Below the pieces are notes generated by a model, which ran no database searches, had not been told where the DNA came from, and was given only the letters and a program-made list of their open reading frames with translations. The translations under genes and the position numbers were made by a program. DNA of 29,862 nucleotides, from positions 4,949,262 through 4,979,123 of the forward strand of contig NZ_CM002285.1 of the NCBI RefSeq assembly GCF_000497445.1. Direction: 5' to 3'. The stretch is from Streptomyces roseochromogenus subsp. oscitans DS 12.976 (GTDB lineage: Bacteria > Actinomycetota > Actinomycetes > Streptomycetales > Streptomycetaceae). This document shows positions 2,637 through 9,543 of this stretch, piece after piece; positions within the stretch are counted from its first letter, which is position 1; the number at the start of each line of letters is the position of its first letter.

Positions 2637-4151
2637 ATGACAGATGACGCGAGAGTGAGCGAGGCACATACGCCGTCGGACGAGGAACGGCTGGCCCAGC
2701 TCGGCTACACCCAGGTCCTCGCCCGCCGGATGTCGGCGTTCTCGAACTACGCCGTCTCCTTCACGATCATCTCGGTGCTGTCCGGCTGTCTTACGCTGTA
2801 TCTCTTCGGCATGACCACCGGCGGGCCCGCCGTGATCACCTGGGGCTGGGTGGCGGTGGGCCTGATGACGCTGTTCGTCGGCCTGTCGATGGCCGAGATC
2901 TGCTCGGCGTATCCCACCTCGGCCGGCCTGTACTTCTGGGCCCACCGCCTGGCACCGCCCCGCTCGGCGGCGGCCTGGGCCTGGTTCACCGGCTGGTTCA
3001 ACGTACTTGGCCAGGTGGCGGTGACGGCCGGCATCGACTTCGGCGCGGCGTCCTTCCTGGGCGCCTACCTGAACCTCCAGTTCGACTTCGAGGTGACCCC
3101 CGGCCGCACGGTCCTCCTCTTCGCCGCGATCCTGCTCCTGCACGGCCTGCTGAACACCTTCGGCGTGCGTATCGTCGCGTTCCTGAACAACGTGAGCGTG
3201 TGGTGGCATGTGCTGGGCGTGGCGGTGATCGTCGGCGCGCTCGCCTTCGTCCCTGGCCACCACCAGTCGGCGACGTTCGTCTTCACGAAGTTCGTGAACG
3301 GAACGGGCTGGGGCAGTGGCGCGTACGTCGTCCTCCTGGGCCTCCTGATGGCCCAGTACACCTTCACCGGCTACGACGCCTCCGCCCATATGACCGAGGA
3401 GACCCACGACGCGTCCACGGCGGGCCCGAAGGGCATAGTCCGCTCGATCTGGACGTCCTGGATAGCCGGCTTCGTGCTCCTCCTGGGCTTCACGTTCGCC
3501 ATCCAGTCGTACGACAGGGAACTCGCGTCCCCGACCGGCGCGCCCCCGGCCCAGATCCTCCTGGACGCGCTCGGCGCCACGACCGGCAAACTCCTCCTGC
3601 TGGTGGTGATCGGCGCGCAGCTCTTCTGCGGGATGGCGTCGGTGACGGCCAACAGCCGCATGATCTACGCCTTTTCCCGCGACGGCGCGCTGCCCTTCTC
3701 CCGCGTCTGGCACACGGTCAGCCCGCGCACCCGCACCCCCGTGGCGGCGGTCTGGCTGGCCGCGCTGGGCGCCCTGGCCCTCGGCCTCCCCTACCTGATC
3801 AACTCGACGGCGTACGCGGCGGTGACGTCGATCGCGGTCATCGGCCTGTACATCGCGTACGTCATCCCGACCTTCCTGCGGGTCCGCAAGGGTGCGGCCT
3901 TCGCCCCGGGGCCGTGGCACCTGGGCCGCTGCTCGGGCCCGATCGGGGTCGTCTCCGTCGGCTGGGTCGTCCTGATCACGATCCTCTTCATGCTCCCGCA
4001 GGTCTCCCCGGTCACCTGGAAGACCTTCAACTACGCCCCCGTCGCCGTCCTGGTCGTCCTGGGCTTCGCCACGACCTGGTGGCTGGCCTCGGCCCGCCAC
4101 TGGTTCCTCGACGGGGCGCGCGCCGCGACCCCGGAACCGGTCGAAAACTGA
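2637..4151 (+). CDS. APC-family amino acid permease
   Basis: A 504-residue polytopic membrane protein that should import an amino acid or amine by proton symport. A hydrophilic start of about 30 residues is followed by roughly 12 hydrophobic helices. The first carries the discontinuous-helix signature around GCLTLYLFG..TGGPAVITWGW (50-71), and FTGYDASAHMTEET typical of the GABA/BAT1-type amino acid permeases lies mid-protein. The gene stands alone between the helicase terminator and tRNA-Lys, so context does not reveal the substrate. GABA, choline or basic amino acids are all possible. The ATG at 2637 gives the family's usual length; a GGAGGG lies a little far upstream (about 14 nt). Confidence 0.9.
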   Translation: MTDDARVSEAHTPSDEERLAQLGYTQVLARRMSAFSNYAVSFTIISVLSGCLTLYLFGMTTGGPAVITWGWVAVGLMTLFVGLSMAEICSAYPTSAGLYFWAHRLAPPRSAAAWAWFTGWFNVLGQVAVTAGIDFGAASFLGAYLNLQFDFEVTPGRTVLLFAAILLLHGLLNTFGVRIVAFLNNVSVWWHVLGVAVIVGALAFVPGHHQSATFVFTKFVNGTGWGSGAYVVLLGLLMAQYTFTGYDASAHMTEETHDASTAGPKGIVRSIWTSWIAGFVLLLGFTFAIQSYDRELASPTGAPPAQILLDALGATTGKLLLLVVIGAQLFCGMASVTANSRMIYAFSRDGALPFSRVWHTVSPRTRTPVAAVWLAALGALALGLPYLINSTAYAAVTSIAVIGLYIAYVIPTFLRVRKGAAFAPGPWHLGRCSGPIGVVSVGWVVLITILFMLPQVSPVTWKTFNYAPVAVLVVLGFATTWWLASARHWFLDGARAATPEPVEN

Positions 4152-4261
4152 CCATCCCACCCCCTACTCCCCCTCCGAACCCCGCCCGACGTGGCCGGGT
4201 CACCGATACCCGATCGGAGACCCGGCCTCGTCCGGCTATGCTCGGACAGGCAACATCGCCT

Positions 4262-4334
4262 GGGCCCTTAGCTCAATTGGCAGAGCAGTGGACTTTTAAT
4301 CCATTGGTTGTGGGTTCGAGTCCCACAGGGCCTA
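4262..4334 (+). tRNA. tRNA-Lys (anticodon TTT)
   Basis: A full cloverleaf can be drawn: acceptor GGGCCCT pairs with AGGGCCT (the first pair is G-U), D-arm GCTC..GAGC, anticodon loop CTTTTAA within a GTGGA/TCCAT stem, T-arm GTGGG-TTCGAGT-CCCAC, discriminator A. CCA is not encoded. It is transcribed rightwards after the permease. Confidence 0.96.
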
Positions 4335-4453
4335 CGGATACGGAGGCGGGGTCACCCCCTCTGACCTGCTGTGCGGCGCTCGGGTCGACTTCGGTCGGCT
4401 CGGGCGCTGACTCGTTTCGGGGTCTTGCGCGAGCGATGCGTGAGCGGATGTGC

Positions 4454-5347
4454 TCAGCTCCGGCAGCCGCAGCCCGAAGCGCTCTTGGCTTCCGTGACGG
4501 TCAGGGTGGGGCCGGCTGAGGTTTCGGACGGAGTGCAGCAGGCGGTGACGCCGCAGCAGGCGCCGTCCGAGTTCCTTGCCTCGGAGTTCGCGTCCGAGGT
4601 GGTGGGCTTGGTGGCGCGGACGATGGCGGAGTGCATGCCGTCCGCGACGGGGTGCGTCGGGGTGATCTCGACGTCCGTGAACCCGGCTGCTTCCAGGCCC
4701 GCCCGGTATTCGGAGAAGGACAGCGCGCCGGCGATGCAGCCGACGTAGTCACCGCGCTCGGCACGCTGTTCGGGGGTGAGTGCGTCGTCGGCGACGACGT
4801 CCGAGACGCCGATACGGCCGCCGGGCCGGAGGACCCGGAAGGTCTCTGCGAAGACGGCGGGCTTGTCGACGGACAGGTTGATCACGCAGTTGGAGATGAC
4901 GACGTCGATGGTGTTCGCCGGGAGGGGGATGGCCTCGATGGTGCCCTTCAGGAACTCGACATTCCTGGCGCCTGCCTTCTCGGCGTTGGCCAGGGCCAGG
5001 GCGAGCATCTCCTCGGTCATGTCCAGTCCGTACGCCTTGCCGGCCGGGCCGACGCGGCGGGCGGAGAGCAGGACGTCGATGCCGCCGCCGGAGCCGAGGT
5101 CGAGGACGCGTTCGCCTTCGCGGAGTTCGGCGACGGCGGTCGGGTTGCCGCAGCCGAGGGAGGCAGCGACCGCCTCGGCGGGCAGCGCGGCGCGTTCGTC
5201 GGCGGCGTAGAGGGTGGAGCCGAAGTTCTCGTCCACCTCGACGGGCTGCGGCCCGCAACATGCGGAGCCGCCTTCGGTGACCTTGACGGCTGCGGCGGCA
5301 TACCGTTCGCGGACGGTTTCACGCAGGTCGGTGGACTGCTCGCTCAT
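4454..5347 (-). CDS. arsM: Arsenite S-adenosylmethionine methyltransferase
   Basis: A 297-residue cytosolic enzyme that methylates As(III) with SAM to methylated arsenicals. The Rossmann SAM motif VLDLGSGGGID is at about 81-91. The family's conserved cysteines are present: CC at 30-31, C66 in SLGCGNP, C154 in SNCVINL and C204 in GCIAGA; the last three correspond to the As-binding triad of characterised ArsM. The C-terminus adds further CC and CGC clusters (ACCGVTACC, SGCGC), which may bind arsenic or be ornamental. The ATG at 5347 follows a good AGGAG 7 nt away; an upstream in-frame ATG has none. It is divergent from arsR over a shared 106-bp promoter region. Confidence 0.92.
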   Translation of the reverse strand: MSEQSTDLRETVRERYAAAAVKVTEGGSACCGPQPVEVDENFGSTLYAADERAALPAEAVAASLGCGNPTAVAELREGERVLDLGSGGGIDVLLSARRVGPAGKAYGLDMTEEMLALALANAEKAGARNVEFLKGTIEAIPLPANTIDVVISNCVINLSVDKPAVFAETFRVLRPGGRIGVSDVVADDALTPEQRAERGDYVGCIAGALSFSEYRAGLEAAGFTDVEITPTHPVADGMHSAIVRATKPTTSDANSEARNSDGACCGVTACCTPSETSAGPTLTVTEAKSASGCGCRS

Positions 5348-5392
5348 GGCTTCACTCCTGGGTGGCGGGGCATGGCGGTGCCCTGGAACGGC

Positions 5393-5446
5393 TTGTATTG
5401 ACGTGTGTTGATACAACCTTGCGCGCTGGATCGAAAGACGTCAACA
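5393..5446. promoter_or_regulatory. arsM/arsR divergent promoter with inverted repeats
   Basis: Between the two starts lies TTGTAT (5393-5398) ... ATACAA (5411-5416), a 6-bp inverted repeat with 12 bases between. A second inverted pair is TTGACG (5398-5403) and CGTCAA (5441-5446). TTGA/TCAA half-sites are typical of ArsR/SmtB operators, so ArsR probably binds here and represses both directions until As(III) arrives. The exact -10 and -35 boxes are not clear. Confidence 0.55.
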
Positions 5447-5453
5447 TAGAGGC

Positions 5454-5825
5454 ATGTCGAAGCAAGAGCTTGAGGTGGTCGGCCAGAACGCCACCTGCTG
5501 CCAGGGCCTGGCCGGCGCGCCGCTGGACGAGGAACGTGCCTCGGAGCTGGCGAAGGTTTTCAAGGCGCTGGGTGATCCGGTCCGGCTGCGGTTGCTGTCG
5601 ATGATCGCCTCGCGGGAGGGCGGCGAGGTCTGCGTGTGCGAGATGACGCCCGCCTTCGACCTCTCCCAGCCGACGATCTCCCACCACCTCAAGCTGCTGA
5701 GGCAGGCCGGCCTGATCGACTGCGAGCGCCGCGGCACCTGGGTGTACTACTGGGTGCTGCCCGGCGCCCTGGACCGGCTCGCCGCCTTCCTGACCACCCC
5801 GCGGACCACCGGAGTGCCGGCGTGA
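5454..5825 (+). CDS. arsR: ArsR-family arsenite-responsive repressor
   Basis: A 123-residue winged-helix repressor. The core runs FKALGDPVRLRLLSMI then DLSQPTISHHLKLLRQAGLI (recognition helix) and a wing ERRGTWVYYWV. Cysteines are C15-C16 near the N-terminus and C60-C62 in EVCVCEM. An N-terminal CC pair joined with a cysteine of the DNA-binding core is the As(III) site described for the Corynebacterium glutamicum ArsR, so the same chemistry is likely. The stop overlaps the next gene's GTG by 3 bases, indicating translational coupling within an arsR-aqpS-arsC operon. Confidence 0.93.
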   Translation: MSKQELEVVGQNATCCQGLAGAPLDEERASELAKVFKALGDPVRLRLLSMIASREGGEVCVCEMTPAFDLSQPTISHHLKLLRQAGLIDCERRGTWVYYWVLPGALDRLAAFLTTPRTTGVPA

Positions 5826-6556
5826 CGGTGCCCCTCGGCCGCCGCGTCGCCGCCGAGGCGGTGGGGACCGGGTTGCTCGTGGCCGTGGTCGTGGGTTCCG
5901 GCATCCAGGCGACCGAGCTGTCGCACGACGTCGGCGTGCAGTTGCTGGCCAATTCACTGGCCACCGTCTTCGGCCTGGGCGTGCTGATCACGCTGCTCGG
6001 GCCGGTCTCGGGAGCACACTTCAACCCCGCCGTCACCCTGACGGCCTGGCTCACGGGCCGCCGCGCCGGGACCGGTCCGGCCCTTCGTGAGGTGGCCGCG
6101 TACGTTTCCGCGCAGGTGGCCGGAGCGATCGGTGGCGCGGTCCTGGCCGACGCCATGTTCGCAAGGCCCCTGGTCAAGTTCTCCACCCACGACCGCTCCG
6201 CCGGCCACCTGTGGCTCGGTGAGGTCGTCGCCACAGCCGGGCTGATCCTGCTGATCTTCGGCCTCGACCGGATCGGCCGCGCCTCGCTCGCCCCGGCGGC
6301 GGTGGCCTCCTACATCGGGGCCGCCTACTGGTTCACCTCCTCCACGTCGTTCGCGAACCCGGCGGTGACCATCGGCCGCGCCTTCACCGACACCTTCGCC
6401 GGGATCGCCCCCGCCTCGCTCGTCCCGTTCATCGCGGCCCAGTTGGTTGGCGCCGCGCTCGGGCTGGGCGCCGTGGCGATGGTGTACGGACGTCCTGCCC
6501 ATAGGGCAGACGATGTCGTCGTCCCGCACGGCGAGCCTGAACTCGCCTCCTCCTGA
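5822..6556 (+). CDS. MIP-family aquaglyceroporin of an ars operon (AqpS-like)
   Basis: A 244-residue channel with six membrane helices and two half-helices bearing the NPA boxes HFNPAVT (NPA 68-70) and FANPAVTIGRAFTD (NPA 179-181). In the Sinorhizobium meliloti ars operon the AqpS channel lets As(III) formed by ArsC flow out. The same position here, between arsR and arsC with no ArsB or Acr3 gene, implies that role. The GTG start overlaps the arsR stop (GTGA) and a GTG start is the only one giving the normal MIP N-terminus. An ordinary glycerol or water channel is less likely from context. Confidence 0.88.
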   Translation: MTVPLGRRVAAEAVGTGLLVAVVVGSGIQATELSHDVGVQLLANSLATVFGLGVLITLLGPVSGAHFNPAVTLTAWLTGRRAGTGPALREVAAYVSAQVAGAIGGAVLADAMFARPLVKFSTHDRSAGHLWLGEVVATAGLILLIFGLDRIGRASLAPAAVASYIGAAYWFTSSTSFANPAVTIGRAFTDTFAGIAPASLVPFIAAQLVGAALGLGAVAMVYGRPAHRADDVVVPHGEPELASS

Positions 6557-6584
6557 CCTCCCTCCGCCCGCAAGGACACCCGCC

Positions 6585-7010
6585 ATGACCACTGCCGCCC
6601 CGCGGCCCTCCGTGCTGTTCGTCTGCGTCCACAACGCCGGCCGCTCCCAGATGGGCGCCGCCTTCCTCACCCACCTCGCAGGGGACGCCGTCGAGGCGCG
6701 CTCGGCCGGCTCCGCACCTGCCGACGCCGTCAACCCGGCGGTGGTGCAGGCCATGAAGGAGGTCGGCATCGACGTCTCCGCCGAAACGCCGAAGATCCTC
6801 ACCACCGAGGCCGTACAGTCCTCCGACGTGGTGATCACGATGGGCTGCGGGGACACCTGCCCCGTCTTCCCTGGCAAGCGATACCTGGACTGGCAGCTCG
6901 ATGACCCGGCGGGCCAGGGTGTGGACGCCGTGCGGCCGATCCGGGACGAGATCGAGCGGCGAGTGCGCGCTCTGCTGGCCGAGTTCGGGATTCCTGCGGC
7001 ATCGGCCTGA
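6585..7010 (+). CDS. arsC: Arsenate reductase, low-MW phosphatase fold
   Basis: A 141-residue enzyme that reduces As(V) to As(III). The P-loop is CVHNAGRSQ (C14 nucleophile, R20), with CGDTCP (C88, C92) and the DWQLDDP general-acid loop (acid probably D107). The family divides into thioredoxin-coupled and mycothiol-coupled types. In an actinomycete, coupling to mycothiol/mycoredoxin is plausible, but the CGDTC pair also fits the thioredoxin type and I cannot decide. The ATG at 6585 has AAGGA 9 nt upstream. It is the last gene of the arsR operon. Confidence 0.92.
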   Translation: MTTAAPRPSVLFVCVHNAGRSQMGAAFLTHLAGDAVEARSAGSAPADAVNPAVVQAMKEVGIDVSAETPKILTTEAVQSSDVVITMGCGDTCPVFPGKRYLDWQLDDPAGQGVDAVRPIRDEIERRVRALLAEFGIPAASA

Positions 7011-7147
7011 GCCGGCACCAGGGTCGGCTCGACTGCCTGGAGAAGTTCCAAAGCCTGCTCGACTGGGTCGGCTGACGGCCGACCAGCCAGGGCCCGGTCG
7101 ATACGGAGATCCCAGACCGAGGTTTGGCGCCGTCGATCGGGCGGGGG

Positions 7148-7447
7148 CTACTCGTGGCCTCTGGACTTCCGGCGGGTCGCTGCGTGGATGGCCTGGGTGT
7201 ACGGGGTGTCCGCGGCGCGTGTTTCCGGGTCGAGGTCGTTGAAAGGGATCAGGGCCTTGTGGTCGCTGTTCACCGTCTGTATCCAGGCGCACCAGGCGTT
7301 GTGGACGTCCTCGTCGGTCACCTGGTCTCCCTTGGCCAGCAGGAGGACGGCGTAGAGGCGGAACAGGTCGTCGGAGTCCGCGGGGGGCTTCGCGTGCGGG
7401 GGCAGGCAGGAGCGGATGAGGGCGGCGAGGGAGTCCAGGTAGGTCAC
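7148..7447 (-). CDS. Small protein resembling a RyR-like domain, last gene of cassette
   Basis: A 99-residue soluble protein starting at GTG (VTYLDSLAALI...), coupled by a 4-base GTGA overlap to the gene before it. A helix-rich N-terminus is followed by EDVHNAWCAWIQ...HKALIPFNDLDPETRAADTPY. The spacing of H-x2-W, H-x2-L-x-P-F/Y, L and D recalls the RyR domain (eHerW...HP.LvPYeeL...kd), which Aravind and colleagues linked to nucleotide-sensing conflict systems. It may belong to an actinobacterial DUF (possibly the one numbered 7701), but I recall this only loosely. Role inferred: ligand-sensing or regulatory partner of the two membrane proteins. Confidence 0.72.
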   Translation of the reverse strand: MTYLDSLAALIRSCLPPHAKPPADSDDLFRLYAVLLLAKGDQVTDEDVHNAWCAWIQTVNSDHKALIPFNDLDPETRAADTPYTQAIHAATRRKSRGHE

Positions 7448-7932
7448 ACGGACAGTGTGCCCCCGAACAGGATCAGGTGCGCCACGGCGAACACGAGGGG
7501 GACGATCCGCTCGGAGGTGCCCAGCTCCGCGTAGCGTGCGCGCCGGCCGGGAAACGGATCCCGCTTGAGTATGTCCCACTCGTCGGCCATGAGCCGAGCG
7601 GCGAGGTGGTCCTCCAGCCTGTGGATGACCTGGAACTTCGCGCTGTTCAGGTCTCGGTAGCTGCGTAGTTGCATCCACCATGCGCCGGACAGGGTGATGC
7701 CCGCCAGAGCCACGGCGAGCGGCACCCACCAGGGAGACCGCGACAGACTGGGGGAGCCGAAGGCGACCAGGGTCACCAGGGTCGACTGCACCGACAGGAA
7801 GAAGGCGTTGGCGGTGCCTCGGCGAGCGGAGACCCGGTCGGCCATCTCCACGGCGAGTTTGTACAGCTCCAGTATCTCCGGCTGTTGGTCCAGTGTGTCC
7901 GGCTGCCGGTCCGGCTCAGGGGGCGTCGTCAC
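7444..7932 (-). CDS. RipA/SLATT-like membrane protein
   Basis: A 162-residue protein with a cytoplasmic start, hydrophobic helices at about 42-60 and 67-86, a polar segment RSYRDLNSAKFQVIHRLEDHL, and a third helix at about 141-158. The layout ELYKLAVEMADRVSARRGTANAFFLSVQ + 2 TM + YRDLN..KF.VI..LE is, to my recollection, that of proteins annotated as RipA-family octameric membrane proteins. They resemble the SLATT membrane effectors of nucleotide-activated systems. The GTG start lies inside the end of the upstream gene (17-base overlap) and the stop overlaps the downstream start, so all three are translated together. Oligomeric membrane pore is an inference. Confidence 0.78.
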   Translation of the reverse strand: MTTPPEPDRQPDTLDQQPEILELYKLAVEMADRVSARRGTANAFFLSVQSTLVTLVAFGSPSLSRSPWWVPLAVALAGITLSGAWWMQLRSYRDLNSAKFQVIHRLEDHLAARLMADEWDILKRDPFPGRRARYAELGTSERIVPLVFAVAHLILFGGTLSV

Positions 7933-9031
7933 CGGGCTCCTCCCGTGTGTCGAGCGCGGTCAACTGGTCCATCACGGGCTGGAGTTCGCGCCTGACCAGT
8001 CGGCTGAGCGTCCAAGTGCTGGACAGCCGTAGGGTCGTGGGGTCGAAGCGAATGAACTTCGCCGCCCAGTCCGGTCGGAAGACGATCAGTCCCTTGAGGG
8101 TGAAGTCCCAACGCAGCCGCTTCTTCCCGCCGTTCAGGAGCACCTCCCAGCGTGGCCGCTCGGGGCGGGCGGGCGGGGGGTAGTCCGGCAGGCCGGGGAG
8201 CGGGGGCCACAGACCAGTTGCCGGTGCGCCTGGTTCGGTGTGTGACCGGCGGTCGTACTCCTCCGCGACTGCTTCCCGGAAACGGTCGTACGTCGGGGCA
8301 TCGCAGTAGGCCAGCAGCAACAGCCGCGTCGGCGGAACCAGGCGCACCGCCTCGGTGAACTCCCACACCGTGCCCGGACCGGGACCCGCCGCCAGCAGCA
8401 CGGCGTGCGCACCCGCGATCAGCCTGCTCACCTGGGACTGCCAGTCGTTCAGCGGCAGATACCCGCGCGCCGCACCCGGCAGCGGCAGCGCCTCGTCGGG
8501 CTGGCCGATCGCGATGACCCGGCCGAACCGCCGGAAGCGGCGTACCAGGGACTCCTCGTATGTCAGCCCCGAGACGAGGAAGAAGTTCTGGGCGTTGCCG
8601 CCGCCCTGGATGTCGTCGGGCAGCCCGGACATGAGCGCATCGTGGGAGAACGGGCGCAAGTACAGCAGGTAGCGGGTGCCCGGCAGGCGGTCCAAGGACT
8701 CGATGACGTCGGCGATGTGCTGCTTGCCGCGCACCACGGTCTGCCGGCCGATCATGAAGACCGCCACGCCGGCGAAGAAGACCGCCACCGCTCCCAGCAG
8801 GCGTAACCACCAGCGGACGTGCGGAACGGACGACCACTGATCGCTCTCCACGCTCTGCCTGAAGAGCGTGAACCCCAGGAAGCCCGACGCCGTGCCCACG
8901 ATCCGCAGGGTCCATCCGGCGGAGACCAGCACCCGCCCTCTCACCGCCCGCTGCGCACCACCCGGTGACGGGTTCTCGTGCGGCTGAGAGTCCGGGTTGA
9001 AGTCATGCTGGAAGAACGGGCTCCCGCTCAT
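7916..9031 (-). CDS. Two-TM protein with a TIR/SLOG-like Rossmannoid domain
   Basis: A 371-residue protein with membrane helices at about 36-57 and 74-95. A soluble domain begins GTRYLLYLRPFSHD (118-131) and runs through TYEESLVRRFRRFGRVIAIG to AGAHAVLLAAGPGPG-TVWEFTEAV (206-229). The YLRPF..D strand, the E-x2-L-x3-F partner helix and a Gly-rich loop followed by W-E resemble TIR- or SLOG-type nucleotide-handling folds. A separate C-terminal piece has KRLRWDFTLKGLIVFRPDWAAKFIRF. The ATG at 9031 is favoured because sequence upstream looks non-coding; its ribosome site is weak. First gene of a three-gene overlapping unit. Exact family and enzymatic activity are unknown. Confidence 0.75.
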   Translation of the reverse strand: MSGSPFFQHDFNPDSQPHENPSPGGAQRAVRGRVLVSAGWTLRIVGTASGFLGFTLFRQSVESDQWSSVPHVRWWLRLLGAVAVFFAGVAVFMIGRQTVVRGKQHIADVIESLDRLPGTRYLLYLRPFSHDALMSGLPDDIQGGGNAQNFFLVSGLTYEESLVRRFRRFGRVIAIGQPDEALPLPGAARGYLPLNDWQSQVSRLIAGAHAVLLAAGPGPGTVWEFTEAVRLVPPTRLLLLAYCDAPTYDRFREAVAEEYDRRSHTEPGAPATGLWPPLPGLPDYPPPARPERPRWEVLLNGGKKRLRWDFTLKGLIVFRPDWAAKFIRFDPTTLRLSSTWTLSRLVRRELQPVMDQLTALDTREEPGDDAP

Positions 9032-9200
9032 ACGCGCGGTCCCCGCGCGGACGGGTGCCGGCAGAGAGCCTGGTTCCCCACCTGCGTCCCCCCTGCCGCT
9101 CCCGTCGGGCCTCGACCCTTCGGAAGATACGGCAACAGGCGGAGCTTTCGTGGGGAGTTGGCTCCGCCTATGCCTTGTGGTTGCTTGTGGTGCCTTGTGA

Positions 9201-9344
9201 GCGTCGTGCGATGTCGTCCGCCCACCATGGCCCGAGCACTCGGTCATCCGCACCGGCCCGGACGGCTACCTCTTCGTCTACCTCTTCGGCAGCGAGGGCC
9301 TGCGTCTCGACGTCCGCACATCCGCTTCCGTCCGGCCCGCGTGA
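9201..9344 (+). pseudogene. C-terminal remnant of an unknown gene
   Basis: A plus-strand frame with no usable start, opening after a TGA at 9198-9200, reads ...EHSVIRTGPDGYLFVYLFG then SEGLRLDVRTSASVRPA and a stop at 9342-9344. It looks protein-like, in contrast to the two other frames, and is followed 18 bases later by a strong terminator. I read it as the truncated 3' end of a gene whose front was lost when the neighbouring cassette was gained or rearranged. The family is not recognised. Confidence 0.4.
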
Positions 9345-9361
9345 GCCGCTTGTCGTGAGTG

Positions 9362-9402
9362 CGGGAACAGGCCGCGGACTCCACGTCCGCGGCCTGTTCC
9401 CG
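9362..9402. terminator. Bidirectional hairpin terminator
   Basis: A perfect 17-bp stem (9362-9378 with 9386-9402) and 7-base loop lies between the plus-strand remnant ending at 9344 and the minus-strand small peptide gene ending at 9415. It can end transcription from both sides. The T tract is short, as is common in Streptomyces. Confidence 0.85.
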
Positions 9403-9414
9403 TTCACAACGAAG

Positions 9415-9543
9415 TCACCAGCAGAGCGAGCTAATCGTGTGGGTGTCGCACACGTAGTTGTTGTCGTGCTCCCCGGCGGAAGCGGACGGGGCCGCAACAG
9501 CTGTGAGGAGCCCGGCGATGAAGAGGGCAGCGATGTATCGCAT
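9415..9543 (-). CDS. Small secreted two-cysteine peptide
   Basis: A 42-residue peptide. Residues 1-23 are a clear Sec signal peptide (MRY, hydrophobic core AALFIAGLLTAVA, cleavage after ASA). The predicted mature form is 19 residues, GEHDNNYVCDTHTISSLCW, with two cysteines (32, 41) that can form a disulfide ring of eight intervening residues and a terminal Trp. The ATG at 9543 has AAAGGA about 7 nt upstream; the longer open frame is ignored because it lacks the signal-peptide start. It stands alone with its own terminator and a palindrome in its leader. Function unknown: extracellular signal, surface peptide or antibacterial are all possible. Confidence 0.7.
   Translation of the reverse strand: MRYIAALFIAGLLTAVAAPSASAGEHDNNYVCDTHTISSLCW

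Follow-up and report, generated by a model that had tools for sequence, protein, structure and literature searches.

The described systems closest to the gene cassette considered here are the Thoeris systems and the phage proteins directed against them. ThsB-type TIR proteins make the signals in Thoeris, according to the accessible parts of two reports (PMC12948488, PMC12847820), and in the related TIR-caspase operons the caspase is reported, in the accessible part of the second of these, to be activated by N7-cADPR (cADPR, cyclic ADP-ribose) itself (PMC12847820). RyDEP is described as a phage anti-Thoeris protein with a RyR domain that cleaves cADPR and has four reported ligand residues (PMC13232231). 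The present cassette lies in a stretch of 29,862 nucleotides from Streptomyces roseochromogenus subsp. oscitans DS 12.976 (contig NZ_CM002285.1, positions 4,949,262 to 4,979,123), hereafter called the window, and consists of three open reading frames, ORF1 to ORF3. We consider it probable, with a fair margin of doubt, that the cassette is a Thoeris-like, TIR-based nucleotide-signalling system for abortive anti-phage defence. It is best read as a Thoeris-like cassette of TIR, RyR and membrane effector in which the usual soluble TIR has been replaced by a membrane-anchored TIR-like enzyme. Its features are:

ORF1, 9031-7916, minus strand: 371 amino acids, ATG start; a TIR-like protein, presumably membrane-anchored, with no family name.
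ORF2, 7932-7444, minus strand: 162 amino acids, GTG start; a small membrane protein of the 8xMP / RipA family (PF24838).
ORF3, 7447-7148, minus strand: 99 amino acids, GTG start; a DUF7701 protein (PF24792).
ORF1/ORF2 overlap, 7916-7932, minus strand: 17 bases, from the ORF coordinates.
ORF2 stop/ORF3 start overlap, 7444-7447, minus strand: 4 bases, GTGA.
ORF1 codons 220-224, 8360..8374, minus strand: the G-T-V-W-E motif, from the ORF1 coordinates and the sequence.

The first-pass annotation of this DNA had proposed a defence-type combination from domain resemblances, and on both counts it was largely right. The strongest new support is that 39 of 70 DUF7701 loci have a ThsB-type TIR gene within 3.5 kb. 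These loci come from a search that took a single genome for each species and are mostly actinobacterial, with single records from Bacillota, Anaerolineales, Betaproteobacteria, Saccharibacteria, the cyanobacterium Phormidesmis and Dormibacterota; partners were counted with HMM profiles run against every open frame, and some of the counted loci had themselves contributed to these profiles. Within the same distance, an 8xMP gene is present in 62 of the 70 loci and an ORF1-family gene in 16. Homologues of the trio do occur together, which counts against one of the refuting outcomes named in the first-pass annotation. The TIR and ORF1 genes occur together in only 3 of the 70 loci and both are missing from 18, of which 12 have 8xMP; for three of these 12 (L039, L040, L042) the available sequence stops less than 0.8 kb upstream. 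A TIR gene stands directly upstream of the 8xMP-DUF7701 pair in 33 of the 70 loci, a count that is approximate, like the gene positions given below for L041 and L044-L046, since it relies on a home-made gene caller. All six TIR neighbours that were scanned exceeded the PF08937 ThsB_TIR cut-off, and the glutamate at the catalytic position is present in 31/31 aligned TIR neighbours (two truncated TIRs of 33 were dropped from the ThsB profile).

The gene order of the window, with ORF1, 8xMP and DUF7701 on one strand, recurs at L030, L052-L055 and L074, in the genera Streptomyces, Streptacidiphilus, Actinomadura and Bailinhaonella, and in other loci ORF1 is located downstream of the pair or on the opposite strand. 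On a tree of concatenated 8xMP and DUF7701 sequences, the TIR and ORF1 genes have been exchanged at least five times, and eight gains or losses of ORF1 are needed, five of them forced by well-supported branches (61 rows, quick method; 10 of 71 loci without the full pair left out). Seen from the ORF1 side, 8xMP is present in 12 and DUF7701 in 4 of 20 ORF1-family regions, a set without 5 of the 25 ORF1 places, which were not fetched again: that of the window and four others that were weak or fragmentary. Among the genomes of the genus, the ORF1 family was found in 21/246 and DUF7701 in 10/246 (the window's own included), so the genes are accessory in distribution and do not have the core position that would have refuted the first-pass annotation. 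A conserved core gene was therefore rejected, the genes being patchy across these genomes, and so were chance neighbours, since 8xMP is rare (14/101 genus genomes) and yet present in more than half of the ORF1 regions.

Some loci in this survey have features of their own. The pair in L061 is preceded by a 465-amino-acid protein without a Pfam match (8142-9539), which by eye appears to be membrane-spanning and has a GTGYE motif; it may be an enzyme partner of yet another kind. In L041, L044, L045 and L046, which have neither TIR nor ORF1, a large regulator gene that looks AfsR/NB-ARC-like by eye is located 95-158 bases upstream of 8xMP. The genome of the window itself encodes a second, distant ORF1-family protein of 33% identity (G000:C1:4666089-4666625; L002 / L203), for which no 8xMP or DUF7701 gene lies closer than about 6 kb. 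Its sole PF08937 match is a separate ThsB-type TIR (E 5.6e-24), about 1.09 Mb from the trio, which adjoins an opposite-strand frame that by eye resembles a small membrane protein (L209 1486-1983 and 2045-2689).

At 7148..9031 of the minus strand, the three frames are intact and their neighbours overlap by exactly 17 and 4 bases, just as the first-pass annotation had stated. The 17-base overlap suggests translational coupling of ORF1 and ORF2, and a scan for a sigma-70-type promoter found none. Each of the three proteins has numerous database homologues. Relative to L030, the closest fetched relative, the differences at codon positions 1/2/3 are 15/17/34 for ORF1, 8/4/20 for ORF2 and 4/4/8 for ORF3, and because they fall mostly at the third position they indicate selection on the three proteins. 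Neither the frames nor this comparison gave any sign of a decayed or frameshifted cassette, an explanation that was rejected.

The predicted model of ORF1 has two long helices, at residues 29-62 and 71-106, followed by an alpha/beta domain (pLDDT 85). The helices are presumed, from their hydrophobic sequence, to be membrane helices, and the alpha/beta domain bears YLRPF...D and GTxWE motifs. Residues W223 and E224 are invariant in the ORF1-family alignment (77/77), and in alignments with TIR and ThsB proteins E224 stands opposite their glutamate. In TIR enzymes this glutamate is the catalytic residue, a role that E224 may share. The TIR suggestion made earlier thus holds, at least as a resemblance. 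No Pfam or NCBIfam family reached its cut-off for ORF1, PADLOC gave no match, none of the Pfam TIR profiles matched at E<=10, and PDB sequence searches with ORF1 and ORF2 returned no meaningful match. A likeness to nucleoside deoxyribosyltransferases (E 0.022), a less likely origin of ORF1, is weaker than that to TIR or ThsB and is based on only 5 short sequences; the comparison sets for the ORF1 and ORF3 profiles held 25 TIR, 13 RyR and these 5 sequences, after omission of two RyR places (from 15) and of some loci with TIR_2. A SLOG-like domain had been considered as well; the SLOG/LOG hallmark is a Rossmann fold with a GGxGTxxE motif.

ORF2 matches the 8xMP profile far above the cut-off (PF24838, E 4.6e-43, 146.8 bits against 30), and many of its homologues are named RipA family octameric membrane protein. 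It is also weakly similar to SLATT_1 (E 3e-4, below the cut-off), one of its relatives is weakly similar to PycTM, and the RipA/SLATT-like assignment is upheld at least as a resemblance. No ligand domain was recognised in the Pfam scan of ORF2, which we presume to be the membrane effector.

Likewise, ORF3 is a clear member of DUF7701 (PF24792, 135.1 bits, with the cut-off at 27), and the H-x2-W and H-x2-L-x-P-F motifs reported earlier are present. ORF3 itself has no match to the RyR family PF02026 at E<=10; such matches occur in 17 of 99 DUF7701 members, the best with E 6.5e-4. Residues H49, W52, H63 and D80 are kept in 99, 98, 96 and 99 of 99 DUF7701 sequences and are aligned with the corresponding H, W, H and D of bacterial RyR domains, with spacings of +3, +11 (not +22) and +17. 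PADLOC returned a single weak match for ORF3, to PDC-S47 (E 0.014). We read DUF7701 as a diverged RyR-type (R12-like), presumably nucleotide-binding domain that has kept the four RyDEP ligand residues. The RyR assignment is borne out at least as a resemblance by the alignments and by the weak PF02026 matches among members, and the fold evidence for the trio, which is moderate, does not point to unrelated folds.

DUF7701 is also found in phages, with matches in 44 of 50,697 phage records, all from Streptomyces phages and some of them duplicates; Pfam confirmed the family in all three that were scanned. Three of these genes, all annotated as hypothetical, are:

L178 7995-8258: DUF7701 gene of phage Faust.
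L179 8001-8294: DUF7701 gene of phage JustBecause.
L180 5998-6264: DUF7701 gene of pSt2308.

An RNA ligase gene is located just upstream of the phage DUF7701 gene in two of three regions read. As single queries, ORF1 and ORF2 had no match in the 50,697 records, and one ThsB query matched a single phage record, different from those with DUF7701. In eight viral contigs DUF7701 is present and the flanking sequence that was fetched (short in three) contains no 8xMP, TIR or ORF1; a search of the viral collection with ORF1 gave one locus, with a weak relative. Such solo genes suggest counter-defence, because phages carry DUF7701 while the ORF1 and 8xMP queries match none of them. The H-x2-W...H...D pattern is kept in 8/8 phage sequences checked. 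The phage copies are set apart from the host copies in a tree (support 87, few columns; 3 of 11 phage-type sequences left out), a grouping that gives no evidence for a recent capture of the gene from hosts.

On plasmid pYJN5-2, typed as conjugative, an operon for a TIR, a caspase and a small RyR-like protein (L181 1044-2690) adjoins a TIR-8xMP-DUF7701 operon (4127-5320), whose DUF7701 frame is broken by an in-frame stop and followed by an IS21 element. Matches were present in 21 plasmid records; six of these loci were read, and in five (L181, L183, L184, L185, L186) the TIR-caspase genes are followed by a small RyR-like gene (the P0320 family). This third protein aligns with RyR at an hhalign E of 3.9e-8. 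The family might represent a general signal-handling subunit.

On the reading that we favor, two helices would hold ORF1 in the inner membrane, and the protein would respond to infection by converting nicotinamide adenine dinucleotide (NAD) or a related nucleotide to an ADP-ribose-type signal, with E224 as the catalytic residue. ORF1 would thereby occupy the place that a soluble ThsB-type TIR has in over half of the relatives. ORF3, a minimal RyR-R12-like protein, could then bind the signal through a pocket made up of H49, W52, H63 and D80 and hand it on to ORF2, an oligomer that would open or rearrange in the membrane, so that the cell stops before the phage matures. We infer the enzyme activity of ORF1, the identity of the signal, the sensor role of ORF3, the membrane damage and the anti-phage effect. 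A more ambitious version, plausible but well short of probable, is that the cassette represents a distinct type of TIR signalling, in which the membrane-anchored YLRPF enzyme repeatedly displaced ThsB, DUF7701 is the receptor, an octameric RipA protein is the effector, and phages use DUF7701 relatives as sponge or hydrolase. RyR-type domains would then act on both sides of one arms race.

We tentatively favor a receptor over a brake for DUF7701, although two observations speak for a brake: the conserved dyad and the 8 of 20 ORF1 regions in which ORF1 and 8xMP occur without DUF7701. Both would fit a rather unlikely variant of the same cassette, in which DUF7701 would remove leaked signal as a glycosidase or sponge of cADPR type, in the manner of ring nucleases, and 8xMP would either detect what ORF1 makes or touch ORF1 directly. 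The dyad in question is the catalytic one of RyDEP, present in DUF7701 as H49 (99/99) and D80 (99/99); phages have DUF7701 without the partner genes, and the TIR-caspase operons, whose caspase is reported to respond to N7-cADPR itself (PMC12847820), also carry a small RyR-like gene. However, 6 of 8 tested RyDEP homologues bound signals and degradation was seen with none but RyDEP itself, in the accessible part of that report (PMC13232231). The dyad residues are thus not predictive of hydrolysis, because the tested homologues mostly bind without degrading, and the absence of a recognised ligand domain in 8xMP also argues against direct sensing by this protein.

It is less likely still that the cell is killed by ORF1 directly, as an NADase or nucleotide N-glycosidase bound to the membrane that would use up NAD(P) or nucleotides upon infection, while 8xMP and DUF7701 act as sensor or regulators. 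Against this, 39 of 70 relatives have a small ThsB-type TIR, and TIRs of this type make signals in Thoeris. A function outside defence seems to us quite improbable; the genes would then form a module for membrane stress or development, with a chaperone-like or transport role for the RipA-like 8xMP and with ORF1 and DUF7701 reporting nucleotide status. 8xMP takes its name from RipA, no phage test exists and the near flanks hold ordinary genes, but the patchy distribution, the exchange with ThsB TIRs, the cassette beside a TIR-caspase operon on a plasmid typed as conjugative and the DUF7701 copies in phages all argue against it.

The near flanks do not bear out the gene remnants of an accessory island that the first-pass annotation had described: 9 of 10 near-flank frames scanned belong to ordinary Pfam families, although no search was aimed at remnants. 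These families are a DEAD helicase, an amino-acid permease, a methyltransferase, ArsR, a MIP channel, the low-molecular-weight (LMW) phosphatase family, DUF2637, an XRE-cupin protein and a B3/4 domain. Directly next to the trio, window positions 4454-7141 hold a cassette of arsenic type, with genes for a methyltransferase, ArsR, a MIP channel and an LMW phosphatase/ArsC-like protein; L030 has about 135 bases in its place.

A description of the cassette was not found in the full-text literature on 8xMP, DUF7701, RipA, RyR, SLATT and Thoeris, of which coverage was partial, nor in the accessible parts of PMC13232231, PMC12948488, PMC11204291, PMC12847820, PMC13373217 and PMC13174449. Within this partial coverage, the elements without a description are the swap of ORF1 for TIR and host DUF7701 as an RyR-type component; the ThsB-containing form may have been described already. 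If our interpretation is correct, TIR-based immunity in bacteria would gain a new, membrane-anchored YLRPF enzyme family and a new effector pair, and the RipA/8xMP and DUF7701 families would acquire a definite defence function. The interpretation also predicts what a hypothetical gene of the 44 Streptomyces phage records (some duplicates) does. It would further suggest that RyR-type domains are receptors or terminators of cADPR-type signals in bacterial operons, beyond phages. In animals, cADPR and ryanodine receptors have been linked, and a 99-residue protein would make the old question of cADPR acting on RyR domains testable.

Compared with the types of Thoeris in the accessible parts of PMC13232231, PMC12948488, PMC11204291 and PMC12847820, the cassette is likewise an operon of a TIR-like enzyme and a presumed effector, and a ThsB-type TIR is located near the pair in the majority of relatives. 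The window, however, lacks a ThsB-type TIR (PF08937 or TIR_2) beside its 8xMP-DUF7701 pair as well as an effector of the SIR2-SLOG, TM-macro or caspase kind, and none of the three proteins matched ThsA in PADLOC; its enzyme is presumably membrane-anchored and the other two genes encode 8xMP and DUF7701. No cyclase of the Pycsar or CBASS kind was matched among the three proteins by Pfam or PADLOC, and among the 8xMP/RipA, SLATT and PycTM effectors ORF2 is a PF24838 member, its SLATT_1 likeness being below the cut-off. The TIR-caspase operons, which we label type IV Thoeris-like, also combine a TIR, an effector and a small RyR-like protein, but their effector is a caspase, whereas the window has 8xMP, and their RyR-like protein belongs to another family that is weakly similar to DUF7701 (E 0.0095 and 0.041). 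RyDEP, as far as described in the accessible part of its report (PMC13232231), is like DUF7701 a small helical protein with the H-x2-W...H...D pattern, spacings of +3 and +17 and phage copies. Yet RyDEP belongs to PF02026 and the stretch from W to H in DUF7701 is 11 residues shorter; furthermore, RyDEP is phage-borne, whereas bacterial DUF7701 genes are mostly found in operons with 8xMP.
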